Part shown: positions 2,240 to 60,058 of the stretch, piece after piece | Layout of the letters: every line of letters starts with the position of its first letter | Numbering within the stretch: position 1 is the stretch's first letter | Source of the DNA: Heliocybe sulcata | Lineage: Eukaryota > Basidiomycota > Agaricomycetes > Gloeophyllales > Gloeophyllaceae | Direction of reading: 5' to 3' | Length of the DNA: 64,000 bases | NCBI GenBank assembly: GCA_004369045.1 | Contig: ML213517.1 | Span: forward strand, 254,757-318,756 | Notes under the pieces: model-generated | What the model was told of the DNA's origin: nothing | Database searches by the model: none | What the model saw: only the letters and a program-made list of their open reading frames with translations | Program-made: the position numbers and the translations under genes

Positions 2240-2610
2240 AGAAAAACCTTCTCAAGAACATGGCGGACGCGCTAGAACCGAAGGATCTCCGTGCGGATGA
2301 GAGAGGAGGGCAATTGCTACTCCAGCGATTCGACGATGCGGTCCTTGATAGGGAAGATCAGATAATTGGCGACCATGTGCGTAATTGCGCTCAAGGACGG
2401 TGAAACGGCGTCTGCAACCTCAGTCGAGCGATTGAACTGCCTGTTAGAACTGTACGAGGCGATGGCAGACCGAAGTACATGGAGTTATAACCAGGTCATA
2501 ATAGCTTCCAGTTTTCGTGCGGTATCCTGTAGATGGACCACCGGTGCGCCTTCGTATGTCTCCTGGTCCGAAGGGGATTCAGTATCTCCACCATGTCTTC
2601 AGGACCGACG
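2240..2610 (-). pseudogene. Decayed BTB/POZ-domain gene
   Basis: On the minus strand, out-of-frame pieces match the BTB proteins at 52-55 kb in this window. One piece reads TYEGAPVVHLQDTA followed by LEAIMTW, where the intact copy has TYEGAPLVHLPDTA and a similar helix. A second reads NYLIFPIKDRIVESLE, where the intact copies have KYIISSIRARIVASLE and KYMISVIRDRIVENLE. The pieces lie in the right order but are separated by frame changes and stops, including a stop just after VESLE. The N-terminal BTB strand and the C-terminal half are not visible. This is a strongly decayed relic, older than the frameshifted copy at 54 kb. It explains most of the gap between RPC31 and the next gene. Confidence 0.7.
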
Positions 2611-2893
2611 AGTGCATGGAGAATAACATAGTATGACTTTCTCGTTCTCGATGTGGACCGTACCTAAAACATTAAGCTACCCTCTTCGAAAGTACACGGG
2701 ATGCTTTGACGTTCTCCATGCATATAATCATGGCCGATGTATAGATGGAAGCAAGAGTGCAAGTCCCACCTTATTTGTGGCAACAAGCTTTCAATCACTT
2801 TCTCACAGTAATTAAGGCGCGCTTGTCGATTACCGTGCTGCTTCCCTCCCAGCAGAGCTTATACCCGACTATGCTCACGGTCTGACGACAATA

Positions 2894-3620
2894 ATGTCGA
2901 CTCAGAGTCCAAGCTCAACCCTCCCTGCTAACGCTTCTAGTACCTCATCAAGCACCCAGAACAATGGCTTCCTCGGCGGGCCCGCTTCTCCGCCTCTGAT
3001 TCTCGCTCTCCTGGCGGTGGGCGTATTCGGGATAGGCGTCGCATCCATGTTGGGATGGCGGAGGGCGCGCGCAGGGAGGTCGATGGTTCTGGGACCCTTC
3101 GGAGTAGAGACGCTTGGCATAGACCGGAACGAAGCGCGGCGGCAAATCCGACAGGACGCGAAAGCTGTCGGAGAGAAGCCGTTATTATGGGACCTCTCCA
3201 GTCTTCCCTTCACGCCGCGCGATGGGCATACACAATTGGGGGACTTCTTGGTACTTCAGTGCACTGCTTACTCCAGGAGATGCAGGATTCCTGATTTGTT
3301 TTTTTGCATAGCCTATCTCGACGTATGTCGCCAGGGATACCAGCGTGCCTGCTTTCCTGGGTCTGCTCTCCCTGTCACCCTCTGGGAGAGTGCAGACTGG
3401 GCGGCATGATGAGCTGCCGCATGGCCGAACCTACTCAGCTCGTGCAGATCGTAGCGGTCTACTTCACGCAGCCTTCGCAATAAGGATGCCGTCCGCGATT
3501 GGTCCCTTTCGGAACAATTGCGATGATGTATGTGGTAAAGAATCTTCTCGCTCCTCCGGTAGCTCTTTTGAGTATACCTTCGGTATACTTCGGTCCAAAG
3601 TATGTGGAGGTGATGGTTGA
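2894..3620 (+). CDS. Small single-pass membrane protein, uncharacterised
   Basis: Two exons fit: 2894-3250 and 3312-3620, joined in phase by a GT...AG intron, for about 221 residues. The N-terminus is Ser/Thr-rich and probably extracytoplasmic. One clear membrane span follows at about residues 32-53 (PPLILALLAVGVFGIGVASM), followed directly by an Arg-rich WRRARAGR segment that would face the cytosol. Distal landmarks are KPLLWDL, LPISTYVARD, LHAAFAIRMPS and FEYTFGIL near the C-terminus. This layout (Ser/Thr stretch, one span, WRR, then a soluble tail with an Ala/Met-Pro strand) recalls a group of uncharacterised Agaricomycete proteins, from memory only. No enzymatic motif is visible. The second exon is less certain than the first. 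Confidence 0.6.
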
Positions 3621-4318
3621 TCCGACGACTTTCTACTGAGTGCATGATCGGACATTGTATGAACCATTTTGAGCAGGGAGTGTCAGTGTACGAGCTCTGG
3701 TGTACAGATAGTTAACTAACATACAGCTTGTAGGGACATAGAATTAATGTATGTGTCTTCCGTATTCCAACCACTTGTATGCTGCGCGCCGCCGGGAGGC
3801 ATATAGCGCTATTACTGCTGAAGGCCACCGGAGTCCAGGAAGTCAGCGAGGGCGACCGAGTGTCCCTGGCATGGCCCAAGTGGAGGAAGCGTCCCAAGAG
3901 CTCGAGAGGCCTGCAAATCTCGTGTTATGTTGTGCGTAGGCAGTCTGGCCGCTTCATAGCTCGGGGCGGGGTGACTGCGCCGCCGCTCCTCGAATGCTCG
4001 TAAAGACTCTCCGGCTGCTTGTACGTGTCAAGAGGTCAGGACGTGATGTCTAAAACAGAAAGCTGGCGAAGAAGTCGACATATGAGTATACGGCAAGAGC
4101 AATCGACAGTTCAGGGAGATCTTGAAGGTGTCCGATGAGATGTCAAGATGATAATAGCAGCAAACCATAATCACAACGCGGAGAAGTAATGCTCTGAAAA
4201 TCGGCCATGACACATTAGAAGTACAGCGGAACAGAAAATGTATGCAGTAGACAAGACGGAGAATAGCAGCATCCAAGATTACCAGGTCATGTCTATATTG
4301 CCAAACGGATAAGAATCA
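3621..4318. other. Intergenic, no gene recognised
   Basis: Between the small membrane protein and the primase gene. A short open stretch at 3779-4003 (plus) has no recognisable domain. An extra 3' exon of the primase could lie at the right end of this interval, but none is convincing. Confidence 0.4.
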
Positions 4319-5793
4319 GGCGATCCGCACATCGAGAAGTCTCCACATACCGGCATCTCTCTTGATCCGCCGAACTTCATCCATTAACGCCATAGCATGC
4401 CTGTCTAACATCTCGATATAGGGCTTCAATGACGTCCTGTCCGAATCTGTGGCTTGAGCGTCAGCATCGCGAACCCGAGAGGAAACAAAGCAGTGACAGC
4501 GCGACGGACCAGAATGATGCTCCTCGCCCTCGGGACTGTCCTGAGCCATCGTTTCGTCCAATTCCTTGAGCAGCTGGCCCACGGTAGGGACCTCCTCGGG
4601 GTCGAAATCGTCGACCTGGTCTGGATCTACCGGTACACAAATTCTACCTGTCTTTGGATGAACACAGAAGGGCGCTTTCAGCAAGTGATTTCGGTGCTTC
4701 GAGACTTCAGCATCGAGTCGCGGATAGGTGTATTGCAGGATTATATCCTCCATAGCTGCTTGCAAAGCTGGCTGATTTCACTTATCAGTTCGCCATAAGC
4801 AGTAAGACTAGGTTGACGCACACGCTGTGAACTGCCCTTGACTTCTCTTTTGAAATCTTGCCATTTCTGCGCCGAGGAGCGTCCCGAGTCGGAGGACCAC
4901 TTATCTTGTAACTTTTGCACTACGGACTGGTCAGGTATCAGATGTAAGAGCGCCTGCCAGCCTTCTTCGGAAGCGAAACAGTCTTGGTCGGTCAGGATTA
5001 GGTCCCCAAAATAATGGGCCAAAGGTTCCAGCGCCGTCCTATGAACACTGAGCATCGGGGAGCATTCTAGTACTAGGGAAACACTCACTTTAACGAGGGA
5101 GGCAGAGGTCGGGAGCCCAGTCTGGCATTGACTTTCTTATGCGAGTCCTTCCCACCAGTGACAACGGCTATCCACGACACGATGGCCTTCCGTTGTTCAT
5201 CGGTCAGCTCCATTGCCTCCTTGTCCGATATCCACAAGTGAATACCACGTCGCCCGGAGTACACCCACAGCAGGTGTTGGTAGCCAAATTGGTCACGAAT
5301 AGAGCTGTCCATGACCTTAACTGCTGCCGCAATGAATGCCCAGCACCGCTTGCAGATTCCAGCATCCGAGCAGCAGGTACGGATTGAATCGTAGTCCGTC
5401 ATATCGATATCGAACACCAGTTCGCGTAGTAATGGCATGAATCCGCCTGGTCTGATAGTCTTCTTGTCTCGTGGCTATTACGACAAAATAAGGACGCAGT
5501 TAGGGAGATGTGAAGGCGCCACTCACTCTAGCGCTGTAGACAGGTCCGATTTCAAATCTTGTAGGGTTGAGCGTGCAAACTTGCTTCTTGAAGTCTTCGA
5601 CCGTGTTGAAAGAGTTGTACCGCAGATACACGTCTCCTTGCAAAGTAAAAGCAAATTCACGGTGGGTGTACAACTTCGTCGGTACGTGTTCATGATTGAG
5701 CCAGTTCATTATCGACTTGAATGGGTAAAGGCGCCTGTAGAACGCGAGCATGAGCTCTGGAGACGGGGCCTCTTGGTCCTTCGCGATAGCCAT
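4319..5793 (-). CDS. PRI1: DNA primase small (catalytic) subunit
   Basis: Catalytic subunit of the Pol alpha-primase complex; makes the RNA primers for replication in the nucleus. Exons run from 5793-5527 (SPELMLAFYRRLYPF), through 5474-5089 and from 5047 onwards, to the 3' end. Visible hallmarks are the catalytic Asp motif VFDIDMTD, a Cys cluster CCSDAGICKRCW that fits the structural zinc site, the conserved SGRRGIHLW nucleotide-binding motif, a downstream DQDCF block and IILQYTYPRLDAEVSKHRNHLLKAPF cores of the C-terminal half (given here in parts). An acidic linker containing EGEEHH probably spans one intron before SLKPYIEML. One intron (5088-5048) is only 41 bp. The last codons (RRIKRDAG and onward) may be spliced to a further short exon, so the 3' end is approximate. 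Confidence 0.92.
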
Positions 5794-6558
5794 TGTAGCG
5801 GATAGTTACTAGTTATGTCGGTCAAGGTCAAAGTCTGGAGCTACCGGAGGGGGTGAAACCGACTGGTGGGAGACACGCAAGAGACGCGTCCAATATTACA
5901 AACAACGCGCTGTGACTGTATGCAACGCAATGTGACCGCTCGCGCTTTGTCACGTCCGAGCACGTGCAGCATTTTGTGGCTTCATCCACGCGCGACGCGG
6001 CCGTTCTTGATAGTTACATACAGGTAGGTGCCCTATCTGACTTAAGTGCACATATACCCAGGATTCTGGCGCATATGCCTATAGTATTTTGCGCGTGAAA
6101 GTATTCAGCCAAGTCTGGTGCTCCTAATATGACTTCTCTATCACTATTTCCAGCCTATGTACGTTCAGGTCCGTCCTTTCTGCTGATTATCCGGCCTCTT
6201 GCAGCGGCTTCGGTGCGAGCACCCGAAAGTGCTGGCTTCTTGAAGCTTTTTTGCCTAAGTAAGGCTGTCTGAGGAGCGCGAACAACCACGATTGGAGGTT
6301 CTGAGTGTTCTGTAGGCCTCTTCTCCTATCATGGCAACTGGCTGCCAATCGTCGAGGGAGGTAATTCGTTCTGCTACGAGTCATTCACCCCTTTCCTTAT
6401 CGGTCACAACCACATGGCTCTGGTCCAAAAATATCCAATGCTTATCGGTGACTTGCTCGCCCGTCGGTGCCGCTCCCGATGCGGACAGCAGCCATACAGA
6501 GAATATTTATTGCTTGAGCGTTGGGCGTCGTTTTCTTGTCAGTCCTCTCATCCGGACG
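5794..6558. other. Divergent intergenic region, primase / ABC transporter
   Basis: About 765 bp between start codons. It holds the MluI box near the primase, a CACGTG near 5960 and a TATA-like area further right. The transporter frame stays open upstream of 6559 but looks like untranslated leader. Confidence 0.4.
5884..5894. promoter_or_regulatory. MluI cell-cycle box next to a CCAAT box, primase promoter
   Basis: ACGCGT at 5884-5889 followed immediately by CCAAT at 5890-5894, about 91 bp upstream of the primase start codon. ACGCGT is the binding site of MBF, which drives G1/S genes including primase subunits in yeasts. Function here is inferred from that precedent and from the position. Confidence 0.55.
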
Positions 6559-16329: not shown

Positions 16330-18769
16330 GTCAGGAGAGTCGATGCCCCTTCCGTCGATGTGGCATACAGCGGTCGCGTGGATACGGAGCGAAAATCCCT
16401 GCTGGATCAACCAAGGATCAACCCGTAAAACAGTCCTGCTAGCTCCCAGCCACCATCAAGTCCGTCCGCCATAGGAACGGAACGGGAGTCGGGCGTCCGT
16501 CCTAATGTCTCTGTCAGCCCCGCTCTGCGTATCAACGGTCTTGCTACTGACCTGGGATAGATGGGCTATAACTGTCAGCGGCTTGCACGGCTTTCGGATT
16601 TCTGGACACAGCCGAGATGATTGGCCGACGCGCGGACGGGACGGCGCTCTCGTGGATACAGCGCGCTATGTCCTTGTATTTGATCCAGAGTGGGTGGCCG
16701 ATTTCCCTCAGAACATCAACAGGCAAGCGCGAGGACTTCATCTTCGTACAAACCCGGGATGCTCTCATTTTACTGTGTCCGATTGCTTCCTCGGCTCATC
16801 TCGTGCAATTGCCTCGCCTTGGATCGATGGCCTTCACTGCTACACTTGTCCTGAAGCCTCACTGAGTCAGCAGTCCTCTCTGTTGGAAGTACAGCGTAGG
16901 CATACGGCTTGCGGTCGCAAGGAGCTTTCGGAGATCACCCCAACAATGACGATCCCAAACGTCGTGCCCGTCTCTTTCAGTAATCAAGCGTGGCGATCTG
17001 CTAAGTTCTATACACGTGTCTAATACGATCTGGCTTGACATTTAGAAGTGTCTCTTCGTCCGTCACCTAATCAGCAATGCTCTCTGTTGGAGGTGGCATA
17101 TGGCTTGCGGTCGCAGGGAGCTTTCGGAAACCATCCCAAAAACAGCATGTCCGTCTCTGTCAGTAATCAAGCGTGGCGATATGCTCTAAGTTATCTACAC
17201 GTGTCTAATACTACCTGGCCCGACATTCAGGATTATTTCTTGGCTCCCGGCTTCCCATCGGTAAGCTTTCGCTCTTCGGGATGCTGGTGCATCTCTTCCA
17301 GTATTGTCGATCTTCCTCGGCCCGCTCGCAAGGACAGTTGGATGTCCAAAAGCTACGCCCACACTCACATACTGGCTCCTACGCTTGGTTGGATACTTTG
17401 CGAATTGCCTTAGATGTGAAGATGGAGAGGCTCCCTTAGCTTCATGCTGGGAGACACACCGATGACCATACTCCGCCATACAGATGCGGGGACACGCTGC
17501 TCTTGTGTCCTGACCTTTGCAGGGACTTCACACACTATCGACTGGGAAACAACGAATGACTCATATCCCATAGGCCGGGCTTATCTTGACTTGCCGTTCG
17601 ACGCGTCTTACCCACCCAGCTCCGTTAAACGCAGACAGCCCTTCCTATACTCTCAGCCTCAATTTGTCAAGTTCTATTACAATTATCTCTGGGTATTTCA
17701 GTCCCTTCCCAGGTTTCCTCGTAGCTCCTTCCGTCGGGTTCAATCCATGCCCGCTCTTCGCAAGCCTGACCGAGAATGATCCGAGGTCAGTATCCTCGCA
17801 TTCTGCGGTTTATATGGAGACGGGAGGTGCTGGCTTTGTCCTAGGGCATTGTGATTGGGGGAAAGAAGAATTGCGTACTACTAGGGATAGGTGAATGCCC
17901 GCGCGTGTGCCTTCTGATGATGTTTTCGAACAGGATGAGGGCAACGACTGCTTCCTGTGAGGTCCGTCTATATCACTTCCGTCATACCATTGCGTAGGAG
18001 CAAGAGGTGCCCTTGCTTCGTACGTGTCGATCCATTCCCGCACAGCGCTGCTCACTAGCACTTCCAGATCCGATTGTTCTTTGCCCGCGATGCCACGGCT
18101 GCGCATGACGCTCGACAAATATCCACGAAATATCCGCTGCAGAATCACGTGGACGTCCCTTCGTTCCTTGGCACGAAATCAAATCCTCCCAGGTATGAAT
18201 TCCCGATGACGTCCCTTCGATGCCGCCATTTCGTCGAACCCCTGGATTCGAAGGCCTGATAGGTGCGATTGTCGTCGAATCGAACCCACAGGGCGGAACC
18301 TCGCCGCTCTTCCCGACTTCACCTTCCCCTCTCATCATGACGGCGTCAACCCGCGATACTTCTGAATAGGCTGAGGCGACGATCCCCATCAACGATATCG
18401 ATGTCTATTCCCTGTGGCTGTCGTTCACAAACTCGCCTGCGGTAAAAGCAATCATCCACCGTCGAAACTGCGTTTCCCCTTCTGACGGTTGCATCTCCCT
18501 TGATTCCTCCTGCCGCGTTAAAGTGTTGAGAATCTTAATACGGTACCTTAGGGTAATTGTATCTATACTGATTATTTCTCGCTCCGTTTGGCCTCTAGAA
18601 CGCGTTTTCCAGCAATTTAACAGGAAATAGCTATTTTTGGTAAAAATATGAGCAAATTACCCGACCACTCCCAAATCTGCGAAATCCCGATTTTCTATCT
18701 CTGCCAAGTTTTGAAGATATACGAAATCCGTTTTGGGGATCGACTCCCTTTCAATATTCTGCCAGGTTG
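16330..18769. other. Gene-poor region with a tandem duplication
   Basis: About 2.4 kb without a recognisable gene on either strand. It contains the direct duplication described separately at 16870-17230. A minus-strand stretch around 17980-18150 (SDLEVLVSSAVREWIDTYEA) has protein-like composition but no neighbours that extend it. The right end (18540-18720) is AT-rich. Confidence 0.4.
16870..17230. repeat. Tandem direct duplication, two copies of about 160-175 bp
   Basis: Copy A (16870-17044) and copy B (17073-17230) share, in the same order, CTCTCTGTTGGA, GGCTTGCGGTCGCA, GGAGCTTTCGGA, GTCTCTNTCAGTAATCAAGC and ACACGTGTCTAATAC. They differ by substitutions and small indels, so the duplication is not recent. 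No coding role is seen. Confidence 0.8.
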
Positions 18770-20125
18770 TCATCTCAGGACGGGAAGTTCACGGAAGACC
18801 GCCTCAAGCTGATGCACTCGAGCTTGGACCTTGAGCATACGCTGGGTAGCCTGTTCCTGCTCCGAGAGCACGTCATTGAGGTTATCAACCAGCTGCTCAA
18901 GGCTAGCCATTCTATACACCAGCGCCTTGCGATCTACGGGCAAAGGAGTAAGCTGAGGCATATTTTCACGTCCGCAACAACGTACGTTCTTGATTCAGGA
19001 CGGACCACACGTCCCCCGGACCCTGTGCAGGGCTAGCTCCTCCCCATGCCGCGGCCCCGGGGAACGGGGACGGGCCCGCATGAGATGCGAAATGAGGCGC
19101 TGGAATTTAAGTGTTGAGAGTCGATATTAAATACAGCGGGATGCTTACCTGGCTCCGAGAGAGATCTCGCCTTTCCCTTGTCTTTGCGGCGCTCATCGTC
19201 TCCAGGCGGCTTGGGCTCTATTTTGGAGGACCCTGGACTCGGAGCTTCATCAACCCTTCTCACCTTTGCCTTCTCATTGATCAGATCGTCCTCAGCCCGA
19301 CGCTTTGACGGCTCCTGGATGTCGATTACTATATACTGAGTTAGCTGTCGGTCCCGTGGAGACGCAGACAGCCCAAGCACTTACTCGTTTCCTGAACGGG
19401 CTTTGTGGTCGCAGCCGCTGTGGCTGCGTTGCCTCCCTTACGTCGACGACCTTTCTTCACCTGGGTCTCCGTAGGCAAGCAGTTACTCGTGTCCTGAACG
19501 GGCTCTGTGGTCGCAGCCGCTGTGGCTGCCTTGCCTCCCTTACGCCGACGACCTTTCTTCGCCTGAGTCTCCGTAGGCTTTGCAGGAGCCTATTTAGTCG
19601 GTTTCGGTGGAATATTCGGATATACGTACAGCGGTGGGTGCGCGGACGCTCTCTGAAGGTGCCTTTGAACGTCTTGGCCTCCGGATCCGCCCAGCTTGAG
19701 AGGCTGCCGGCAACGGCGGTGGCGACGGCTCGACCTGGGCGGCATGATCGCGAGGAGAAGCAGGGGGAGGAGAATCAAGCCGGTTGCTCTGGGCGTCGGA
19801 AGGGAGAGTCGGGACCGTATCAGAACTACCAGGCGCGTTGTCCGACCATGGAAACGATTCTATTCCCGCCCTAGCTGCAATTTCACCCAGAACGTCGGCG
19901 TCGAATAGTGCTCGGCAATGCTGAACAAGATTGCGTTGGGCTTCGGGGTCTGTGAGTTTGGCTTGTCCCTGGGAGAATATCAGCAAAATCCAGCGGAGAC
20001 GGCCGACTTGAACTGACAATCTGGTCGACAAATAAGTCAAGGACCTGCTCGGTTGTGAGCAGCTCCTGCTGGAAATAGAAGGCAAGTTCCTTCGCAAAGC
20101 TGAGCAGCTCACTGTTAAGAGCCAT
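18770..20125 (-). CDS. Unknown protein with duplicated basic module and C-terminal coiled coil
   Basis: I do not recognise the family. Exons join cleanly through GT...AG introns from the start at 20125: an N-terminal helical region (MALNSELLSFAKELAFYF, ending DQI), then GQAKLTDPEAQRNL and a Pro/Ser-rich linker. Next come two consecutive copies of a 30-residue basic unit with the core PTETQ(A/V)KKGRRRKGG, encoded at about 19390-19590. Then follow a charged KRRAEDDLINEKAKVRR segment, a Gly/Pro/Ala-rich stretch ending DVWSVLNQE, and a final leucine-zipper-like helix (SLEQLVDNLNDVLSEQ onward) to a stop at 18770. About 390 residues in total. The GRRRKGG cores could bind nucleic acid; that is inference. 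A MITE-like element lies only about 117 bp upstream of the start codon. Confidence 0.65.
19388..19585 (-). repeat. In-frame tandem repeat of about 100 bp inside a coding exon
   Basis: Two head-to-tail copies, each encoding PTETQ-KKGRRRKGG-AATAATT-PVQ(D/E)TS. They are nearly identical in DNA sequence, which suggests recent slippage or unequal exchange within the gene at 18770-20125. Confidence 0.8.
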
Positions 20126-36956: not shown

Positions 36957-38760
36957 CTTGCCTTGAAGCCTAGTCCTATGACACGCTACACGACGGTGTT
37001 GGTCAACAGCATGATGCGCACCTATGCAGGACTAGTATCACATTGCTGGGCCATAACGTCTGTACATACAAGTGAAGCAGCGTATCCAGCCGCCCAACAG
37101 ACCTATTCAGCTCCACCCACCATTTCCTTCAAGCCCCAAACAATCGTATCCACCTGGAACTCACTGAAGTGCTTTCTCTCCACCAGCTTTTCGAAAAACG
37201 GGTCGAGCCGTGAGGCAGGCCTTGCAGCCAATGCTTGGAGGCACCTGAAATGAAGACCCGCCATTATTGAACTGTTAGGGTGAGAGGAAGCGGACAGGGC
37301 TCACTCTGCGTCCGAGATCCCGAGCCGCTCAAAAATGGGCCATAAGTAAGGCATTGGCGGCGAAAGAGATGTGAGGAAGGCTATGACATAGTCGGACGGG
37401 TTGGCAGTAGAGGTGGAGGTGGATTGCATAGTTGAGGACTGAGAGGCCGTAGTGCCATGCGAGGCGAGAGGCGTTGAGGTGGACGCTTGCGAGCTGCTGG
37501 CCACGTTGTTTGAAACTGGAAAATTCAAAGACGTCTGCGTCGAACTTCGCGAGCTGGAGGGGCTAGCCTTGGGTGGCACTTGGACGTATACCTGAAGGCA
37601 GTCTCAGTAGTGCTCGCTACTCTGATAGCAATCGCTTACCTGACCCGACCTCGCAGATCGCAAGGTTCTTCTAGGCATGTAAGGAGACGTGGCCTACAGC
37701 CGCGCTCAGGTAAGTCTGCATACTCATTTTAGTTGGCGCTCACAATGTTGTCAGTCGTGTCTGTCGACTCTTGCTTGATGGCCTCGGAGCCCATAGACTG
37801 CTCGCTTGCCTCATGAAGAGCGACAAAAGTCGAGGCCGTCTTCGCATTTGGGGTCTCATTTTCCTTGCCACTCTGTTTGGTCTTCCACTGCTTCTTATTA
37901 TACTTGCGACTCAGAAGCCAATTCGTCACGTAGCTCCTCAGTGGCCACGAGTTAGGGAACCGTGCAAAGATAGGCAAGCGTGTCGTCGCCTGCATGCACC
38001 CGACTAGTATCAGTCCGCCAACGTGCCCTATGAAGGATACTTTGTACTCACCGTTTGGATGAAGCTGTTCCATTTTCCTGCTTCCTGTTCTCGTACTGAA
38101 CGATCCTTATCGAGGAGTTCATCTGCAAGATCGCGCACGGCTTCCTGCAGAGTCAACCAAGTCAGAGGTGTCGACTTGCGAAATAAGGAGGCAGAGATTA
38201 AACACCCAGAGCTTCGTAGCCTCTGCAGGAGGCAAGATTACATTGATAGCTTGGTAGTGCGTCTGTCGCATGAGCTTCTGCTGCCGACGCACGCTAGGAG
38301 TTGTTGCTCGTACTAATCCATGACGGCAACATCAATGGCACAGAAGCATGCAAGAGGGATCGTGCTCACCGATATTCATAACAGACTGTGACGCAACTTT
38401 AACACGAGGCATATCGAGAAGCTGAGGGCCGTTAGCTGTCGAAGAAAAGGATAAGAGAGGAAGGTGAGGTGGGCCGCTTTATAAGTGCTAAAGCTTGTTG
38501 ACGATCTTCTCCATCAAATTGACCCTTAGTACACGTAAAAGCAGCGTACAAGGCGCGACATGCGCCCCTCAAGGCAGGGCCGTCGCAGGACGGCAGTCCA
38601 GTTCATGTATACGGAGGGAACAATCGCACTTATATACAAGATTATCGGAGACCAGAGGAAATTAGTGATGAAGACTTTGGCGATCAATATTGGTCACAAT
38701 GAGCGTTACTCGTAGAACTCGTAGATCACATGATCGTGCCACTAAGCCTCTCAGCGTGAC
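36957..38760 (-). repeat. Inverted duplication block, left copy
   Basis: The reverse complement of this stretch aligns over its length with 44800-46600. The match includes the gene, its introns and promoter (for example GATCATGTGATCT in the upstream flank and CAATGTGATACTAGTCCTGC downstream). The two copies differ by many substitutions and short indels. Block ends are approximate and were placed by eye. Confidence 0.8.
37104..38412 (-). CDS. Unknown-family protein, copy 1 of a duplicated gene
   Basis: Function unknown. Exons join to MPRVKVASQSVMNIG, then an RRQQKLMRQTHYQAINVILPPAEATKLW helix region (given in parts: HYQAINVILPPAEATKLW), EAVRDLADELLDKDRS, EAGKWNSFIQT, ATTRLPIFARF-NSWPLRSYVTNWL, a basic RKYNKKQWKTKQS stretch, PRRTLRSARSGQ, and a Ser/Thr-rich linker. 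The end module SDYVIAFLTSLSPPMPYLWPIF continues ERLGISDAE, then a final helical exon with SRLD(R)FFEKLVERK. The pattern PI-x3-F-x4-W-x3-YV-x2-WL recalls a large Agaricomycete family of unnamed proteins with a YPIL...W...YL core; that is from memory. The frame looks open in every exon checked. Its paralogue is at 45161-46449. Confidence 0.65.
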
Positions 38761-38984: not shown

Positions 38985-39212
38985 GTCCTTGGATTATATC
39001 CCTCTGACTCTGGTGTCCGTTCTCCTCGAGGCAAGCATCAACGGCATCTCAGTCGGAAGGCTCGCAGAAACACCCATCATAATTCTTCGAAGATACCAGT
39101 ATATACTCCTCTCGGCAGTCCACAGCGAGACGAAACAGGTCGTACTGTACAAGATATTGCTCTCCCGGCATTCGGAAATCTTTGCAGATATGCTGACGAT
39201 GCCTCCTCCGGT
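38985..39212 (+). pseudogene. BTB/POZ gene fragment abutting the P450 stop
   Basis: The plus strand reads SAVHSETKQVVLYK, then LLSRHSEIFADMLTMPPP, nearly identical to the BTB proteins at 52 and 54 kb. Upstream, the ASQSEG...FFED start region is recognisable in another frame and carries a stop. After MPPP the similarity ends, and the P450 stop codon follows at 39216-39214 on the other strand. Only the first BTB exon is represented, without the second exon. It is a truncated, frameshifted copy. Confidence 0.75.
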
Positions 39213-39213
39213 A

Positions 39214-41453
39214 CTAGTCCCTTCTCTTGATGCCCACATTACACTCGACCGGCTTCCTCAAGAACCCTTCGCGAGTGTCGAACTGAGCAGTATCCAGGTC
39301 AGTCGATCGACAGTGATTATCCGAAGATACTGCATACCTTCTTCTCGGGCTCTTCCAGTAGGAAGTGGTAGCGCCGGAGGATGGAGGAAATGATAATGAG
39401 CAGCTCCATACTCGCCAAGTTACGACCGACACAGGCCCTGTGAACATAGTCAGACAGTGGCCATGTCTTAGTATTGTGAAACACCCACCTAGGACCGTAG
39501 GAGAACGGATTGAACGCCTTGTTAATGTCCGCCTGGTCAATCTCGAACCACCTCTCTGGCCTAAACACGTCGACATCCTCGCCCCAAACAGCCTTCTCCC
39601 TGTGGATCGTGTACGTGGGCACGCTGAGGACAGTGCCCTCCGGGAATGTCTTCCCGCACACCGTCATACCGCCCTCGGGGACGACGCGAGGCAGGCCGAT
39701 GCCGGAGGTCGAGTGGATGCGCAGGGCCTCGTTGATCACGGCCTCGAGGTACTTCAGCCGCTTGACCTGGTCGAATGTCGACACGGGGTCGTCGTTGCCC
39801 AGCGCCTCGTCGAGCTCGGCGTGGAGCTTCGCCTGGACATCCGGGTAGAGAGCGAGGTAGTACGTGATGGCGCAGGACGAGCTGGAGACGAAGTATTCAT
39901 CAGTGTGGTATCAAATCGAGGGCCAGGCGGTGCCTACTTGGACGTGGTGTCAGACCCCGCAATCAGCTGCGTCAACGCTTCAGCAGTCAACTCCTCCCTC
40001 CCCATGGGCTTGCCCTCGTCGTCCTTGCCCTCCTGCAGCTTGCTCAGCAAATCGACGCGGTCCGTCGGGCTCGTCATCCGCTTTGCGACGGCAGCCACCG
40101 CGAGTCCTGCGAGGTCTTTCACTGCCTTGCTGCCGTTGCGGTACCAGGGGTGCAGGTTCTTGACGAACGGCCGGAACCACACCGGGAGGACGCCCATAGA
40201 TGCGGAGTACTCGCCGCGATCGTTGAGTATCTGTACGGCGGGGAAATAGTTGACCTTGAGAGTGTCGGCTTTCCCGTAGGAGGCCATGGCGTCTTGGTGG
40301 GAGATGGCGACCGCAGCCGAGTCCTTGCATGCTGTGAGCATGCCGAAGGGTGAACCGAATGCGAGGTCGCCTGTTGCTTGGGTTCAGTAACGGTGATCCA
40401 CCTCGTTTGGACTTGCACGTACCAATGATGTCGAATGCCAAGTAGTTGTACCCTGTTTCTCGAATTAGCGAGCTGAAGCCATACGAGCGTGCCAGACATA
40501 CAAGGAAGCGAATCGAGCCAAAGACGGCCGTCTCTTCCCTTCCACCCGTTGCCCTCATCGCCCGACATGCCCTTCGCGGCCAAGTCGCACAAGCGGTCCC
40601 ACTGCTCGATGAGCTGGCGGACATAGAGCCGCACGTGGGGCTCGAACTCCAGCACGCTCTTCTGCGAGAAGATGTGCGAGACGATCTTGCGTTTGCGGGC
40701 GTGCTCGGCTCTGTCGCGGGTATTGAACAGGCCTCGCCGGATGGACACGAAGGCGTCGTAGAAGTCGGATTTGAGCGAACCATTGCCGTGGGCGTAGACG
40801 ACTTGCAGGGCATCCGGGTCCGCGATGGATAGGTGATTTGGGGCTATGCGAACGAATTTACCTGTATGTATTCAATGAAGGTGATTTTATTATTAGTCAT
40901 GCGGCGTGGACTCGGCACATAGAAATAGCCGATTGTGTGCCCCAGCAGCAGAAAGATGACCGAGTGGATACCAGTCGGGCAAATCAACAACATGAGGTTG
41001 TTTTATCCCGGTTGTAGTCAACCAGGATTAATACGTGCGCCATGTTTACAGACAGCCACAGACTGATACCACGACGTGTCTTAGGTTTCTTCCCGCCGCT
41101 AGCGTTCAGCAATGGATCACCCTCGCTAGTTCAGCCCAGTGCTCCTTCCGGTCTCTCAGGGCGATCTTACGAAGTATCCGAGGTGGCATACTTGGATTCC
41201 ATTCAGACTACGCACCGTGCTTTTTGTGCAGGTCATGCACAACTTCGGATCTGTGTCCTTGTGCAGTGACTCGGCCCAGCCAAGCATCCGAAACCTTTGC
41301 GAGGAAAGGACCTGGGATATTTTTCGCACCATGTGGGTCGACAAGGTAAGGCACGACGTGCCCCAAAGCGACGACTATAGCGAGAATTATGAGGACATTC
41401 GTGAAGTCGGCGTCCATAATAGACATGGCGGAAGGGGGATAAGCAGTGGGCAT
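39214..41453 (-). CDS. Cytochrome P450, CYP53 family (benzoate 4-hydroxylase type)
   Basis: Microsomal monooxygenase; CYP53 members para-hydroxylate benzoate and related aromatics, a detoxification and lignin-aromatic step. N-terminal membrane anchor (VLIILAIVVALGHVVPYLV), then NIPGPFLAKVSDAWLG and HRSEVVHDLHKKHG, diagnostic of CYP53. Further on: FVRIAPNHLSIADPDALQ, TRDRAEHARKRKIVSHIFS, an I-helix with LIAGSDTTS, the ExxR motif in EALRIHS, FRPERWFEI, and the haem loop FNPFSYGPRACVGRNLA with its Cys (split by an intron inside the Arg codon). The last exon is TREGFLRKPVECNVGIKRRD. About 520 residues, frame intact. Start at 41453 or 41426 (MSIMDADF). It sits alone between the two inverted duplication blocks. 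Confidence 0.92.
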
Positions 41454-44799: not shown

Positions 44800-46600
44800 C
44801 CTCGCGAGTGAGGCCTGATGTCACAATCATGTGATCTGTGAGTAACGTTCAATGTGACCCATATTTGATCGCGCCACTTGGATACTAGTACGGATTTCAG
44901 TGCAGCTATGTCCTCTGGTAGGCGATGTGAGTCTTCCGTGATCTCGCCCATAAATGCGACTGTTCACTAGATGACCATATATTTCTACGACGGGCCTGCC
45001 TTGACGGGCGCATGTCGCGCTTTGTACGCTCGTTTTACGTGTATGAAGGGTCATTTTGATGGAGAAGATAGTCAACAAGCTTTAGTACTTATAAACACGT
45101 CCACCTCACCTTTTTCTCTTGTCCTTTCCTCAGACAGTTAACGGCCCTCACCTTCTCAATATGCCTCGCATAAAAGTTACCTCACAGTCTGCTGTAGATA
45201 CTGGTGAGCCTATCCCTCTCGCGTGCCTCTGTGCCATTGATGCCATTGTCATGGATTAGTACTAGAAAGGGGGCAACAGACGCCCTTACCAAGCTATCAG
45301 TGCGATCTTGCCTCCTGCGGAGGCCATGAAACTTTGGGTGTTTAGTCTCTGCGTACTTACTTCACACGTCGACACCTCTAACTCGGCTGACTCTGCAGGA
45401 AGCTGTGCGCGATCTGGCAGATGAACACCTCAATAAGGACCGTTTAGTCCGGGAGCAGGAAGCAGGAAAATGGAACCACTTCATCCAAACGGTGAGTACA
45501 AAGTATCCTTTGATAGGGCATGTCGACAGACCGATGCTCGGATGCACGCAGGCGACCGCGCACTTCCCCATTTTCGCACGGTTTTATAGCTCCTGGCCGG
45601 TGAGGGTCTACGTGACGAATTGGCTTGCGAAACGCAAGTACTGTAAGAAAACCCGGAAGACCAAACAGAGTGACAAGGAAAATATAATCGCAAATGCGGA
45701 GACGGCGTCGACTCCTGCAGTTCTTCATAAGGCAAGCAAGCAGTCCATGGGCTCCGAGGCTATCAAGCAAGAGTCAAGAGACACGACTGACAACATTGTG
45801 AGCGCCAACTAAAATGAGTATGCAGCCTTACCTGAGGGGTCCGGGACTGTAGGCCGAGTCTTTTGACAGGCCTAGAAAGACCTTGCGATCTACAAGGTCC
45901 GGTCAGGTAAGCGATTGCTATCAGAGTAGCGGGCAATACTGACGCTGTCTCCAGGTATACGTCCAAATGCCACCCAAGGCTACGCCCTCCAGCTCGCAAA
46001 GTTCGACGCAGAAGTTTTCAGGTTCTCCAGTTTCAACCGCCCCGAGCGTGGCCAGCAGCTCGCAAGCGTCCACCTCGACGCTTCTCTCCTCGCATGGCAC
46101 TACGGCCTCTCAGACCTCAACTACGCAATCCACCACCTCCTCTACTGACAACTCGTCCGACTATGTCATAGCCTTTCTGGCATCTCTCTCCCCACCAATG
46201 CCATATCTATGGCCCACGTTTGAGCGGCTCGGTATCTCGGACGCGGAGTGAGCGCTGTCCCTTTCCTCTCACCATAACAGTTTGATAATGGCGGATCTTC
46301 ATTTCAGGTGCCTCCACGCATTGGCTGCAAGGCCTGACTCACGGCTCGACCGATTTTTCGAAAAACTGGTGGAGAGAAAGCACCTGAGTGAGCTCCAGGT
46401 GGATACGATTGTTTGGGGCTTGAAGGAAATGGTGGGTGGAGCTGAATAGGTCTGTTGGGCGGCTGGATACGCCGCTTCACTTGTATGTACAACGTTATGG
46501 CCCAGCAATGTGATACTAGTCCTGCATAGGTGCGCATCATGCTGCCGACCAACACCGTTGTGTGGCGTTGCTCATAGGGTCTGATTCTATGGCAGCCCCG
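44800..46600 (+). repeat. Inverted duplication block, right copy
   Basis: Aligns to the reverse complement of 36957-38760 through promoter, exons, introns and 3' flank. Ends are approximate. Confidence 0.8.
45161..46449 (+). CDS. Unknown-family protein, copy 2 of a duplicated gene
   Basis: Paralogue of the gene at 37104-38412 with the same exon order: MPRIKVTSQSAVDTG, PYQAISAILPPAEAMKLW, EAVRDLADEHLNKDRL, EAGKWNHFIQT, ATAHFPIFARF-SSWPVRVYVTNWL, basic RKYCKKTRKTKQS, a Ser/Thr-rich linker, SDYVIAFLASLSPPMPYLWPTF and a last helical exon ending VWGLKEMVGGAE. Relative to copy 1 the second exon is shortened near its start, and the region encoding PRRTLRSARSGQ in copy 1 appears disturbed. This copy may therefore be less functional. 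The codons around the conserved PIFARF and SPPMPYLWP cores are kept. Function unknown. Confidence 0.6.
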
Positions 46601-50690: not shown

Positions 50691-52233
50691 GCACCGCCCG
50701 CTTGTTGGGACTCAGGCTTGTCATCAACGTCCCGGACGCACTTGTCGACGCCCTGACGACTCTTCGGCTTGAGCTCGGTGTGTCGTCGGCGCGCAAATTA
50801 GATGTTGGCGGTAGCGGCCTCCATCGTTTGCGGAGACGGAAGATATTCAGTCGTTACTCAGCTGCGCTCCGGGATGTTGATACTGGTGGAGCAGCTGTGA
50901 ATGTGCTTGGACCTTGGATCGCCTTGGTTGTGTCGCAGAGTCGTGAGTGAGCCCATATAGACATCCTGGCGAAAAGAGCAGTCGGATATGATGCGGGCCA
51001 GGACTTGCGAGGCAGTTATCTCTGTCTGATTGCTATGGCGCCGGTCGTTTCCCATATCTTCGTTCTTATGCGCCAACAAGGACACACCGCACTGCGCTAT
51101 TCGCCGTAATTCGATACCGAATGCCGTAACCCATCTGTTAAGTAGGATCCTGGCGAGGAACCACCGACGTCCCCAAGTGACCAAGTTGAAAGCGGGCCGC
51201 TGTCGGAACAAGCTGCAGCTTGTCAATAATTCTGTGCGGACTTCGTACAGTCAACTTTGTCACATCCCATATCTTCCCATAGCTCACAGACGCCCTGTAA
51301 AACATAATCGGCAGATCTCGGTGTATACGGATCAATCGTTAATTATGAGTGCACTGAGTCTGCCTTGCAATGTTTCGAATGCTTCGCAGCCCTAAATTAA
51401 ACGGCGAGCCACAAGCACCTCTGGCTTCTTTGATCGCCCCATCGACCTCGGTCCAGGACCGCTTCATTAAGATGAAACGCGCATCAGGTTGGTCATGTCC
51501 TCATATACGTGACCCTCGTAGCAGTTGACCTGCGAGATTCCAATAGACGACCGGGCGAGTGTACCATTCCTATCTCAAGCATCCTGGCTTCCACTTCCAC
51601 CTCCCTCTCGTCCACGACCTCATCCCTCTCCTCGACTCAGTACTATCCTCCGCCTCTTCCTATCTCACTGATGCATAAGCCCACTCTGCTCAGCAGGCAC
51701 TCCTTGAGACAGAAGAAGAGTGGCGATGATGAGAGGGCTTCATCGCCAAAGGAGAGACACGGCGGGGACTCGCCCACGAAACGAGGAAGTCGATTCCTCA
51801 AGTCTCTGGTGTCTCGAGGTCATGGCCGCGGCTCGTCCGCGGCCAGCTCCGGTCAGGCCTCCCCGACAGCAACTGTATCCGAGTTGAGCACTCAGACTAC
51901 TCAAGAGGACTTTACCGAGACACAGCTCGGTAGCAGTCTACCACCATCCGAGTCGTCCTGTTCCAGCGCCCACCGCTCTGAGGCAGCCAGCGATCCAGAT
52001 GTTGCGGATATTTCGCTTGAGATGGACGATGAGGCATCTGTTACTCATGTAGGTATACCATTGTATATAAGCATTCTCATTTCATGATGCTGAACCGCGC
52101 ATACATCAAGGACAAGGTAGCTGAACCTACGCGAGCGGCTTTTATCGCCGGGACATTGGATTCCCCTGCTCGCGAAAGCACCCAGTTGCCGCAAGAACCG
52201 AGCTTCGCGAGCGTGGACCGCTCTGATATTCAG
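50691..52233 (+). CDS. Serine-rich protein of unknown family, gene model uncertain
   Basis: Coding-like exons with consistent composition but unclear joins. At 50691-50948: LLGLRLVINVPDALVDALTT, LRLELG, LHRLRRRKIFSRYSAALRDV and WIALVVSQS, ending at a GT donor. At about 51520-52053: AVDLRDSNRRPGECTIPIS, then a Ser/Thr/Pro-rich stretch with SLRQKKSGDDERASS, KRGSRFLKSLVSRG and an acidic end. A GTAGGT donor and an AAG acceptor 60 bp later would add DKVAEPTRAAFIAG...LPQEPSFASVDRSDIQ, ending at 52233 with another donor. The ACTT region 50.95-51.5 kb is not explained. The last exon stays in frame with the BTB exon that follows, raising the possibility of a fusion. No known domain recognised. Confidence 0.4.
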
Positions 52234-52332
52234 GTAGGCCGCCTCTTGCATTTTACACTTTGGATTCTAGGGTATAACCGCATGACATATGTCAGGACTC
52301 CGTGGCTGAGTGCGTCCTAACGTCTCCTGGGA

Positions 52333-53474
52333 TGAAGCATGCTTCGTATTACTTCGCAGACGGGAGCATAGTGCTGTCCGCGGTCCATAGCGAGACGAAG
52401 CAAGTCGTGCTCTACCGCGTGCAAACGACCTTGCTCTCCCGTCACTCTGAAGTCTTTGCGGACATGCTGACGATGCCTTCTCCGCCCGAGGCGCCGACCT
52501 ACGAGGGGGCGCCGCTGGTCCACCTCCCCGACACCGCCGAGGAGATCGAGGCTATGGTGCACTGTTTTTACGATCCCGGGTAAGCCGCATATATCCGCGC
52601 CCTGGAAGGAGTTTCTGAGTTCTCATGTATGGTATCATCCAGTCGATTATATCACGAAGATGTCGACCCGGCGTCACCGTTCTGGAGAGACGCAATGCAC
52701 ATGGCAACGAAATACATCATCTCCTCCATCCGAGCGCGCATCGTCGCGAGCCTGGAGAAGCAGTGGCCCAGGACGCTGCAGGAATGGATCGCTCACGAAG
52801 CACGCAAGCGGTTCTTATACGAGGAATGGGTGCGGAGGGACGACGAGGGGCGGTTTTACGATGACCTAGTGCCCGAGCCGGCTTCAGCAATTCGCTTCGC
52901 GCGGGATTTTGACGTGCCGTCTATTCTTCCAGCTGCGTTCTATGATCTGTTGCTCATCGACCCAAAGAACGATTGGGATACTTGTCGACGTCGAGGGCCC
53001 GCCCAAGAGCCTAGCAGCCCATTAAAGGACGGCGATCGGACAGCCCGGTGGGATCTGTTGTCGGCGCTTGACTTTAGGGCGCTCATGGCTGGGAGAGAGA
53101 AGCTGTGGCAACGGTTCTTGGAGTTCGAGCATAGCACGGAGATGGACAGGCACTCGAAGTATGGGCAGGCGAAGTCGTGCCCTTGTGTCTATGCCACTAC
53201 TGCGACGAGACATGAGTGGGTGAGGACGTCCGGCGTGCTGCAGTATTTCGTGAGGGTGGCGGATACTGCGGCGGATGGGTCGGGGCCTGCCTATGATATT
53301 CAGGCGTGCAAACCCTGCTATAGGAGGATTGGGGAGAGGGCGAGGAGTATGAGGGAGAAGGTATGGGATGAGCTCGCCGCTATGTTTACGGTAGATGGAG
53401 ACGCGGCGAGCAGAGGATTCATTGATCCTGGCTCGTCAACTTTGCTCCCAGAAGTAGGTCTCTGTCTTCTATGA
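52333..53474 (+). CDS. BTB/POZ-domain protein (intact copy)
   Basis: Probable adaptor or protein-interaction protein; many Agaricomycetes carry large BTB families of unknown role. Two exons, ending 52579 and starting 52643. Exon 1 holds the BTB core: ASYYFADGSIVLSAVHSE, LYRVQTTLLSRHSEVFADML and LPDTAEEIEAMVHCFYDP. Exon 2 gives RLYHEDVDPASPFWRDAMHM, KYIISSIRARIVASLEKQWP, and FDVPSILPAAFYDLLLIDP. A C-terminal region follows with CPCVY and CKPCYRRIGER, a Cys pattern conserved in the sister copy. The usual start MA(S)..PE..EGW is not recognisable here; the first ATG is 52333, but the frame is open further left through a possible splice from the serine-rich gene. The 3' end may have one more intron. 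Confidence 0.8.
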
Positions 53475-54066: not shown

Positions 54067-55167
54067 ATGGCTTCTCCAACTCCGGAATCCCAGTCGGAAG
54101 GCTGGCGGAAACACTCGTCCTATTACTTCGAAGATGGAAGTATAGTCCTTTCTGCGGTTGACAGCGAAACAAAGCAAGTGGTGCTCTATCGTGTACAGAA
54201 GACTTTGCTTTCCCGGCATTCCGAAATCTTTGCAAACATGCGACGATGCCTCCTCCTCCTGAGGCTCCGACATTCGAGGATGTGCCTCTGGTTCAGCTCC
54301 CCGACACCGCTGAGGAAGTCGAGGCTATGGTAAACTGTTTTTATGATCCCAGGCAAGTTACCTGCGGTACTGCAGGGTTGATTTGAAATTTTTAACGTGT
54401 CATTCAGTCGATTATATCACGAGGACGTTGTTCCTGTCTCCCCATTTTGGAGGGCCGCTATGCACATGGCCACCAAATACATGATCTCCGTCATCAGGGA
54501 CCGTATCGTCGAAAACCTGGAAAAGCAATGGCCAAGCACATTGCAGGCCTGGGTGGCTCTTAAAGCCAACAAGCGGTGTCTGGAAGAAGAATGGGAGCCT
54601 GAAGAGCTTGATGCCTACTACGACGATGTCGTACCAGAGCCAGCATCCGCGATTCGCTTTGCCAGAGACTTTGGCGTGCCATCTATCCTCCCAGCGGCCT
54701 TCTACGCACTCTCTCTTATCGATCCCAGAGATGACTGGGACACTTGCCGCGGACCTGGGCCGTACGATGCTGATACGTTACGGCAAGGCGGTCGTTCAGC
54801 CCGTTGGCATCTGCTTGGACCTTCTGACTATAGGGGTCTTCTGATAGGCATACCGGGCCTCTGGAATCAATTTATGGACTTCGCGACCTGGGCAGAACGC
54901 GACAAGTACTCAATCTATGGTCGATTTAAACACTGTCCCTGCGTCTATACCACGTCAAAAATGACACACTCTGACGTGAGACGACACGGTGTTCTGCTAT
55001 GTCTGGGCGAGGTGTCGGTCCTTGCACCGGATGCGATCCTCAAGGATATGTATCACGAGGATGTATGCGAGACCTGCCGTGAGCGAATTAGCAAGACAGC
55101 CACGGAACGGATGGAGGAGATATGGTCTAAGCTTGGTGCAATGTTCATGTTGGATCGAGCGAGTTAA
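54067..55167 (+). pseudogene. BTB/POZ gene with a single frameshift
   Basis: Sister of the 52-kb gene. Exon 1 (54067-54352) starts MASPTPESQSEGWRKHSSYYF and reads through the BTB core to SEIFANM. One base is missing near 54241 relative to the intact copy (ATGC-GACGATG against ATGCTGACGATG). The remainder of the exon (LVQLPDTAEEVEAMVNCFYDP) is then in another frame. The intron (54353-54407) begins with GCAAGT, a GC-AG donor, where the 52-kb copy has GTAAGC. Exon 2 (54408-55167) is fully open and conserved: RLYHEDVVPVSPFW, KYMISVIRDRIVENLEKQWP, FGVPSILPAAFYALSLIDP, CPCVY and CETCRERI. Everything else is intact, so it is either a very young pseudogene or an assembly or sequencing error. Confidence 0.8.
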
Positions 55168-55708: not shown

Positions 55709-58581
55709 TCATCCCGGAAGGCGACACTCTTTGTCTGCATACGGGGGATCCAATTTAACACCTTCACCAAACCAACTTGAAGGAAGGGAGACACTCACCT
55801 TGATCATGAATGCCTTCAAAATCTGCGCCAAGCCAGTAACCTCGCACTTCCCCCGATCCCTCTGGCGCCCCTCGGCATGCGGGATTAACCCCATATCGAA
55901 CACCGCCTGGTCCCGGCTCTGGAAGCCCGGCACGCCCGGTGTTACCGTATTCTGCGCGCCCAAGAAGACGTCAGTACCCTGTCAATGCAGATCCGGATCG
56001 CAGACGGGGCCCGAGGTAGACACTCACGCAATCATCCTCACTCCTCATACTCATCATCTGACAAATAGTATGTTCCTTACATTCGCCGCGACACTTCCTC
56101 CTCCTGACACCACCGTTCTTCCGATGTTGGTACTCGTCGAACAGCGTGTTGTTGTGGATCATCAGCTCCGTGATATTATGCCAGAACGCCGGAGAGAGGG
56201 AAGAAGTGGAGGAGAGGTTGAGGAGGGGGCCGTAGGAGGCGCGAGCCGAGTAGAAGAGGGACCATTTGGCTGTAAGGGAGAAGATGGGATCAATTAAGAG
56301 GGGAGGGAGGACAGAGGAGGGACATACGCCTGCGCCGGAACGAGGGATCAGTCATGTTCGCTGCGATGCCTTCGTTTAAAACGCGGCCGCGGAGCTATGC
56401 ACAAACTGAAGCTCACTGAAATATGACTTCGCGTCCATAATCTCGTAGGTATCCGGATCAACGTCGTATACCTTGAATGCAGGGTTACCGCCTACAACCA
56501 CCATGGCCGTCAGTCCGAATCCAATCCCTCTTAAGTACAGCCACACATACTGCGAGGCGTAAGCGCAGGCGCCACCAGCCCAAAGCTGACTGCATTTTCG
56601 GCGGTGCGACTCTTATAATCTGAGTACGCGATCTGGAGCTCATCCTACAGTGAATCCACCGTGAGCGTTCGCATCTATCACCCGCGTCTGTCAAATGGCA
56701 ACCACTCACTGAGTGCGTGTGCCCGAAGAACTGTCCCGCTATTGTGTTCTTATAGCGCTGGACGATTTGATCGTAATAATTGGACTTCACCAATGATGAT
56801 GAGTTACAAAGGTCGGAGCACAAGATGTGAGGACGAGGAGAGAAACTGACCTGGTCCCACATAATGTCGCCTTTCCCGACCGGCGAGTGCCCGATGAACC
56901 ATGCTCGCTGGCCCGCATCCTCGGCTGCTTGAAGTTCGGAAATGATAAAGGCGAGGATGCCGTTAGGATCGGCTCTAAAATATTACCCGTTATTGTTCGG
57001 ATTAGAGGATGCTATCAGCGAGAAGAAGTGACGCACTGCAGCTCATCGCTATCATACAGCCAGAAGCTGAAGATCAAGGGGAAGTCAGTGGCAGAATGAA
57101 GAAGGTGAAGGAGACATACTTCTGCTTATACCAGTAGTTCGTATTGATGGAGATGATCCTATCCGAGCATTTCATAAGCACGGCGTATCTTGAAGACGAA
57201 GACAATAGCTCACTTCAACTTGGTCCCCGGCACGACCGTCGAGTAGCTCCCGGAGGTGTGGACCATTTGGTAAGCGGAGGTCGAGTTGATCCATTTCTGT
57301 GGGTACAAAGGCAGCATCAAAATCTGGGTCCACGCCGTGAGAGGTAAGGAGAGTTGATGTACCCTCCAGCCTTGGCTCTGGACGTCAAACACCCATTGGA
57401 CGTCCGCAGACTCAGTTGTACTGCGCGGGAAGTTGTTGACGGGTGCAGAATCACTTGCAAAAGGTTACACAGCCGTTCATGACCGGGTGGAAAGACTCAC
57501 TGGTTTCCTGCGGTATTAATGAGCACAGCTTTGGCAGTGGAACGGCAGAGCAACAAACGCACCAAGGACACCGAAAACTGGGAAACTGAGACGTGTGGCC
57601 ATCTGGCGGTTGAACTCTTGCAGATCCTTCTTCACTTCACTGTAGAAGCCTTAGCATCACTCGCTAACACGCATGGCTTGTAACTCACGCCTTGTCTAGC
57701 AACCACACAGCAGCTTCAAGGGATATATTTCAGCTGGGCCAGTAGAGACATATGACGGCGCACCTTCGGCAACATCACCAGTGAAGAGTGAGAACATCGC
57801 ATCCGGCGCAGCGTTCTGCACTGCACTGAGCATCGAGTCTGCTAGGGATGCGGGAGAGTCGCAGTTTCTCTCGCCATGCCGGCGAGCATGAACTTTGACA
57901 CGGTGACCTTTCTTCTCTTCCTGGTCCTCGTAATGCCGGCAGCAGATGGGTTTCGTGCAGTTGACCTCTGCACCGACCTGTCGAATGTAGATGAACGTGC
58001 CGCATCCTGCGCGGAGGCCATTTAACCCACGGTATATTGCCGGTCAATATGGACGTCGCTGAAATGTGCGACCCTAAATGGCGCTCTGCCCGTAGACTCC
58101 CAAACGTGACGTGTTTCTGGAGCAGCCTTTGGGAACTTCATGGGCATATGGTTTACCGGAGGAGGTTGGCATAATCCAAAGACGGCGTCGCACATCTTAG
58201 TAGCGGTCTCTCCCCAGACATCGATCTGGCGGAGGTCATGAGCGAGGATGGGTGCTTGATCTTTAATTGCGCCTGCGCATACATCCGCATCCTCGATCTT
58301 ATGCGGTGGTCCACGGAGCTCAGCGTTTGGATAGGGAGTACAACATTCGACCTCACCTGAAAGATCGTACATATACTGGTTATGACCTTCACGAACGTCT
58401 CATCCCCCTTCCTCGCGTAAGCCTGCATCGGGGCCAAAGCCGCATGGCAAGACTCGCAATCCACAGCCTGCTGGATAGCTCGAATGAGGTCGAGAATTGA
58501 CTTCGGGTCAGGAAGAGCCGACCCAGAGACGGCTACCGCTGCTGCCGGGATCGCTAACGCGAGCGCTGCCAGTCTGACCAT
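55709..58581 (-). CDS. Secreted acid sphingomyelinase (saposin B + metallophosphatase)
   Basis: Hydrolyses sphingomyelin-like lipids to ceramide and a phospho-headgroup; secreted or vacuolar. Signal peptide LAALALAIPAAAVAVSG, then a saposin B domain with six Cys (DCESCHAALAPM, ICTIF and MCDAVFGLC). The metallophosphatase domain starts FRVAHFSDVHIDRQYTVG (metal ligands D and H), CRHYEDQEE, FSLFTGDV, GNH, AFIISELQAAEDAG, FIGHSPVGKGD and GQFFGHTH. These five metal-binding blocks are all present in order. The C-terminal part contains ENAVSFGLVAPALTP, NPAFKVYDVDPDTYEIMDAKSY, PAFWHNITELMIHN and CRGECK. The last exon (ending about 55709-55790) is uncertain; a terminal intron after ILKAFMIK is possible. 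Many short introns; about 650 residues. Confidence 0.88.
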
Positions 58582-58965
58582 TGTTGCACCAGCAGAGGGA
58601 GGATGAGAAAGAAAGTCGTACGCAGCATCAACGTCGACATGTTATTCCGGGACTTTACCCAAGGCGTCTATCTATGGATACCGGGGTAGCCGACGTGGGG
58701 TACGCGTTCCTTGACACGGCTAGCTTGAGCAGACGTTGATACGACAGAGACCAATTGGAAGCCACCGAGCACTTCGCTAAGAATCTCTCCCAGTGTCGTG
58801 CAGGATAATACCGAAGACGGATCAAAACGCTCTGGACCCTTCTTACGTATATCGCAGCATCATGATCACCTGGCACATGCAAAGAACTCTCTTCCTCTGA
58901 TCTTATAACTAGCACTAGCAAGTTGCTACGCGGACATTGCATCCGGGATCGCGGCTACAGGGCTT
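58582..58965. other. Intergenic, sphingomyelinase promoter side
   Basis: About 380 bp with no gene; lies between the sphingomyelinase start and the decayed BTB copy. Confidence 0.4.
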
Positions 58966-60058
58966 CTACAGCAGGCGCTTTGCAAGAGGCAATGGCAGCC
59001 GTCTCGAAGCAGCCTACCTATATTATCTCGACGATGGCAAGTCGTCCTTTTCGCTGCCCATAACCAAGAACGAGCAGACAGTGCTCTTCCGTGTACGGAA
59101 GACTGACATCAATGCACTCCGAAATCTCCGCCGATATAATGACAATGCTGTGTCCGTAATAGACTGAGACCTACGAGGGTGAGCCTTTGGTTCACGTCCC
59201 GGTCATCGCAGAGGAAGTGGAAGCTATAGTAGCGTGTCTTTACGATCCCAGGTGCGTGCTCTTGTGTAGCATCGATGGTTGCACATCGACTGATTAGTGT
59301 TCAGCCGTCTCTGCCAGGAAATCAACACTGCGTAGCCACTTTGGGGAACGGTCATGCGGATGGTCATCAAGCCTGGTGATCAGAAGAAGCCTCGTAGCTG
59401 CACTAGGGAAATATCGGTCAACTAACTCGGACGAATGGATAGCTCTGACGCTCGTAAAAGACGGTCCCTTTGTAATGGGCACGCTTCAGGGCCGATCTAT
59501 TGCATTGCCGGACAGCTTTTACGGGGAGCCTGCTTCAGCGAGTCGTTTCGCTAGACTTCGACGTTCCATCCATGCTGCCCGCCGCATTTTATGACCTAAG
59601 TCTCATGACCCCGAGGTCAACTGGGATATCTGCCGAAGCTGCGACGAGGAAGCTGCAGCTCGTTCAATCGAGGCTCAGCGCTCCGTTCGATGCTGTCTCC
59701 TTGATAATGGCCACTTCCATTCTCTTGTTTCTGGTCAGCGCTTTCTGGCGCCGTATGGTGACCGGTTTGAGAGAGCTCATCCAGGAAGGATCCGAAAGGA
59801 GCGGGCTCCCTGTCGTCCTGTCCTTGTCCCTTCTGAAACCCTTCGAACATCAGGAAACACGGCGTCTCGAGATTCCTCGGCATGACAGCCGTATCCAACT
59901 CAAAAGACATCGTCTTGTCCATTACGCAAAATATATGCGTCAAGGACTGCCATACCGGGATCATGGCCGCAGCCCTAGGAATAAGAAAGCAGGTATGGCA
60001 TTGCTCCCTCGGTTCTTTTTGCCCCCTCCTCATGCTACAACATCGTTGGAGTCATAGT
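58966..60058 (+). pseudogene. Heavily decayed BTB/POZ gene
   Basis: Pieces in the family's order but in several frames: AAYLYYLDDGKSSFSLPITK and LFRVRKT (BTB start), TYEGEPLVHVPVIAEEVEAI, ending CLYDPR at a splice-like site, then FDVPSMLPAAFYDLSLM. The helical RLYHEDV block and the Cys-rich tail are not recognisable, and stops separate the pieces, including one after the first BTB part. It is the most decayed of the 52-60 kb group but still shows the exon boundary after YDPR. Confidence 0.75.

Follow-up and report, generated by a model that had tools for sequence, protein, structure and literature searches.

Probable remains of an old BTB/POZ gene cluster, reduced to a single open gene, in Heliocybe sulcata

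Five stretches of one BTB/POZ protein family, from an open gene to short relics, lie within a 64,000-nucleotide window of the Heliocybe sulcata genome (bases 254757-318756 of contig 15, in an assembly of 31.6 Mb and 51 contigs). Are copies still being born and lost at this locus, as an initial annotation of the window proposed, or are these the remains of something older? The stretches, here called copies A to E, are homologous and fall into a single clade, four of them carry lesions, and between copies C and D a low ratio of nonsynonymous to synonymous divergence (dN/dS) is combined with a large dS. They are probably what is left of a local array of BTB adaptor genes that formed long ago and has decayed to one open gene, copy C.

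That the five stretches belong to one family is confirmed by tblastn with the copy C protein, which located C itself (52332-53471), D (54109-55155, 318 bits), E (59103-59855, 80.5 bits), B (39103-39231, 63.2 bits) and, on the minus strand, A (2706-2299, 63.2 bits). The next match in the window reached only E 0.45, and among the controls the reversed window scored 23.1 bits at best, while none of 30 codon-block shuffles exceeded 25.8 bits. DNA-level comparisons within the window agreed with these places, the copies being only about 64 to 76% alike. The copies and their introns are arranged as follows.

Copy A, 2299..2706, minus strand: relic that spans exon 1 and the first part of exon 2, interrupted by stops and frame breaks.
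Copy B, 39042..39231, plus strand: truncated exon 1 fragment, which breaks off next to the 3' end of a cytochrome P450 gene on the minus strand.
Copy C, 52332..53474, plus strand: open gene, with exon 1 at 52332-52579 and exon 2 running to the stop at 53474.
Copy C intron, 52580..52642, plus strand: 63 bases, GT-AG, placed where exon 1 also ends in the kin on contigs 33, 11 and 22.
Copy D, 54068..55167, plus strand: exon 1 lacks one base near 54241; elsewhere the frame is open over one intron, with its stop at 55165-55167.
Copy D intron, 54353..54407, plus strand: begins with GC instead of GT, as read from the sequence and its alignment with copy C.
Copy E, 59021..59855, plus strand: relic in which exon 1 and most of exon 2 survive, broken up by stops and frame breaks.

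Two of the positions given before need small corrections: copy A lies at about 2299-2706 and not at 2.24-2.6 kb, and the DNA match of copy B (76% to copy D over 39042-39209) can be refined to 39042-39210. Copy E had been drawn to 60.1 kb; its BLAST-level homology stops at 59855, but a looser alignment of weak homology reaches about 60022, so the longer extent may be right. The relics are worn to different degrees. Copy A matches at the DNA level in two patches (2308-2421 and 2486-2560), and copy E, with DNA identity of 66-70%, retains a recognisable exon-intron boundary at 59252/59253. Four in-frame stops fall in the matched stretch of each of these two copies, one of the four in or at the intron in both cases when the alignments are read by eye. 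The earlier count of one intact copy, one with a single missing base and three relics holds, C being open, D carrying the one-base deletion and A, B and E being fragments. The N-terminus of copy C is shorter than in its kin, so "intact" here means an open frame and not a proven working gene. By eye, a short third exon of copy C after about 53452 is possible. Directly upstream, at 51476-52087 on the plus strand, stands a Ser/Thr-rich open frame with no Pfam match above the cut-off, which is perhaps a separate gene or perhaps an earlier exon of copy C. An upstream exon common to B and C, suggested by a short look-alike seen by eye, was dropped because the look-alike on the B side lies inside the antisense P450 3' end and DNA comparisons gave no match between the two places.

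Three sequence marks had been proposed as shared by the copies. The insert SAVHSETKQ is found in C and B, as SAVDSETKQ in D, and in altered form in A and E, so its presence in all copies, as such or as a derivative, stands. To call it unusual was an overstatement, since sister-clade genes on contigs 33, 11 and 22 have an insert of similar length, which makes it a trait of a wider group. C and D show the LPDTAEE block clearly; in A and E it is altered, and B lacks it. The exon boundary is seen in C, D and E but is not special to the five copies, as exon 1 of the sister-clade genes ends at the matching place.

Are these copies BTB proteins at all? Copy C itself matched no Pfam model up to E 1, so its membership rests on its kin, and its kin in the genome coincide with Pfam BTB matches. 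The Pfam BTB model was matched by 13 of 19 aligned rows of alignment A1 (best E 4.6e-11), and when the A1 profile was compared with PDB sequences, 59 of the best 60 of 78 matches were BTB proteins (best E 0.0007). A predicted model of copy C (mean predicted local distance difference test score, pLDDT, 79) appears to contain the mixed strand and helix core of the BTB fold: a structure search with it returned, among 50 listed matches, 47 BTB proteins and three of the SKP1 family, at moderate scores, although this search says little on the C-terminal half. The five copies belong, in divergent form, to a BTB family spread through the genome.

Within that family they stand together. Genome-wide protein searches, whose match counts are lower bounds, gave at least 32 matches with copy C and at least 38 with copy D. 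In each case nine were on contig 15, all within the window. Matches elsewhere to copy C were at most 42% identical among those listed, and for copy D one 28-residue stretch on contig 11 was 61% identical (E 0.06). All three matches of a genome-wide DNA search fell in the window. A tree was built from 19 rows (16 genes and the three relics; C22_503 and C22_513 of the 18-member alignment A1 were left out). In it, the five copies form one clade (support 100/100) whose stem measures 1.07 changes per column, and their sister group comprises four genes on contigs 33, 11 and 22 (support 96/91). Without relic A, the five-copy branch, now of four rows, keeps 100/100 and the sister group has 94/87. Sequence comparison thus supports the view that the five copies are one another's closest kin in the genome. 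The grouping in one clade excludes the explanation that their similarity is only that of the generic BTB fold, and together with the stops and frame breaks it bears out the graded decay of one family.

The claim that birth at this locus is active fared less well. A comparison of C with D across 333 codons gave a dN of 0.28 to 0.29 and, by three methods, a dS of 1.5 to 2.4; in exon 1 the values are 0.088 and 1.50 (NG86). So low a dN/dS at so large a dS indicates that selection acted on both lines through most of a long history. At third codon positions the relic pairs differ by 39 to 50%, as against 46 to 49% between C and D, so that no recent duplicate of the gene was found. A locus at which new copies continually arise and die would explain the local clade and the graded decay of its five members, and it gains something from the sister clade: two of its four genes are broken, both on contig 22, one by an in-frame stop and one by frame breaks. 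In the joint clade six of nine genes are broken (A, B, D, E and the two on contig 22), while C and the contig 33 and 11 genes are open exon by exon. What such turnover calls for is a young pair, and the truly young pair in the window is another gene, with a dS of about 0.2. Duplicated copies, some now pseudogenes, are present; recent continuing births are not seen, and turnover of this kind is improbable here. Broken BTB kin also occur at about 497-503 kb on contig 22, namely L021 and L033 (an in-frame stop each) and L013 (frame breaks).

If the copies are the remains of an old array, in what order were they lost? Differences at codon positions 1 and 2 against position 3 number 14:38 between C and D in exon 1, 9:18 for B-D, 37:31 for E-D in exon 1 and 67:55 for A-D. 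These figures are to be read with the caveats that C-D exon 2 is itself 121:121, that the A figure mixes both exons and that the A and E alignments are gap-rich. Against C-D exon 1, the patterns of E (p 0.003) and A (p 0.0008) differ and that of B does not (p 0.61 for B-D, p 0.47 for B-C). The codon-position patterns suggest late deaths for B and D and earlier ones for E and A.

The relics might instead have been made by mutation pressure on repeats, either of the repeat-induced point mutation (RIP) kind or through CpG deamination, and not by ordinary drift. Relic A shows a weak direction from GC to AT (69/203 against 44/162 in reverse), and relic B is rich in such changes (15/82 against 3/65; 11 C>T or G>A against two A>G or T>C). 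Relic E is balanced, with 71 C>T or G>A and 65 A>G or T>C. Changes were rarer at CpG sites than at other C or G sites in A (2/33 against 41/170) and in E (6/55 against 65/324) and about equally frequent in B (2/14 against 9/68), so that none of the three shows a CpG excess. The likeness between the copies, roughly 64 to 76%, is also on the low side for the pairing-based mutation known in other fungi. Despite the bias in relic B, RIP-like mutation is disfavoured and mutation pressure as the maker of the relics is hardly tenable.

Is copy D truly dead? It could be a working gene, either because the base was lost only in the assembly or because a shorter protein starts from a later Met, and this would be compatible with the old-array reading of the other copies. 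Apart from that one base, the frame of D runs open across the intron, its dN to C is low, and an in-frame ATG follows shortly downstream of the deletion. The deletion lies outside any homopolymer, however, and a late start would yield a protein whose BTB part lacks its first strands and helices. In addition, D has changed faster than C, with 17 against six unique sites (p 0.035 with a majority outgroup; p 0.05 to 0.49 with single outgroups). On balance a working D is rather unlikely, though it deserves some weight.

Under the old-array reading, one member of the genome-wide BTB family would have founded a small cluster on contig 15 by local copying long ago, with synonymous sites now near saturation. 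The copies would have been kept for long under purifying selection and then lost one by one; in detail, A and E may have died early, B later and D last, through one lost base, while C remains open. Copy C would be expressed as a putative substrate adaptor of a cullin-3 ubiquitin ligase, its BTB part binding cullin and its helical C-terminal part the target. Cullin genes, not sorted into types, are present on contigs 7, 19 and 20. Fungal BTB families of this kind are expanded in mushrooms. The losses may have been neutral or due to redundancy. That the cluster served a pathway of self-recognition or defence as a fast-evolving set of target receptors, discarded as targets changed and leaving C as the last working one, is very unlikely. 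The locus brings nothing new on BTB proteins or gene turnover, and its history would be the usual fate of duplicated adaptor genes. As a series of one gene at graded stages of loss it could help in dating pseudogenes when sister species are compared.

The surroundings of the cluster are ordinary. Its neighbours have short introns and include genes for the DNA primase small subunit, malic enzyme, ERG2, a P450, an RNA-binding protein and a transferase; in one search round, seven of 10 reading frames of the window had no Pfam match. The P450 gene whose 3' end abuts copy B (39214-40871, minus strand, extent taken from open reading frames) has other genome matches at E 1e-10 or better that are 33 to 45% identical. 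Copy B is also flanked by an inverted duplicate of an unnamed gene (36975-38588, minus strand, and 44985-46578, plus strand), of which one frame was tested and had no Pfam match. Over 223 codons the two differ by a dN of 0.125 and a dS of 0.236 (NG86), which marks the pair as young and weakly constrained. As this inverted repeat lies on either side of copy B, a transposon origin was considered. A genome search gave five matches, two full copies and three weaker pieces on contigs 42 and 50, so it has the look of a gene duplication and is no obvious transposon; nor do the ends of copy B coincide with the repeat edges. Tandem repeats at 16859-17241 and 19374-19578 are 74.5% and 93% alike, respectively.

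How do these copies compare with known systems? Little literature was found on BTB turnover in fungi. Orthogroups specific to complex multicellularity include ubiquitination genes, BTB/POZ being named among these (PMC8893723), and in passages of a paper on nematode F-box genes no mention of BTB was found (PMC5041008). A "rapid birth-and-death evolution" is described for plant BTB genes (PMC10509276). As in those plant families the copies here are local, but the plant genes stand in tandem arrays that reach 22 genes on a single chromosome, whereas H. sulcata has five old copies, four of them broken. In comparison with BTB/POZ proteins that have a BACK-like helical part, such as SPOP, KEAP1, KBTBD2 and NPR1, identities among the listed BTB matches range from 10 to 19%, and the Pfam search with copy C reported no kelch, MATH or ankyrin. 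The C-terminal half of copy C carries a CxxC and W pattern common to its kin. The layout agrees with that of the larger BTB family within this genome (contigs 4, 7, 8, 11, 14, 22, 24 and 33), in which a BTB part is followed by helices with an LPAAFYxL block and then by the CxxC and W; unlike that family at large, the contig 15 cluster sits on its own long stem.
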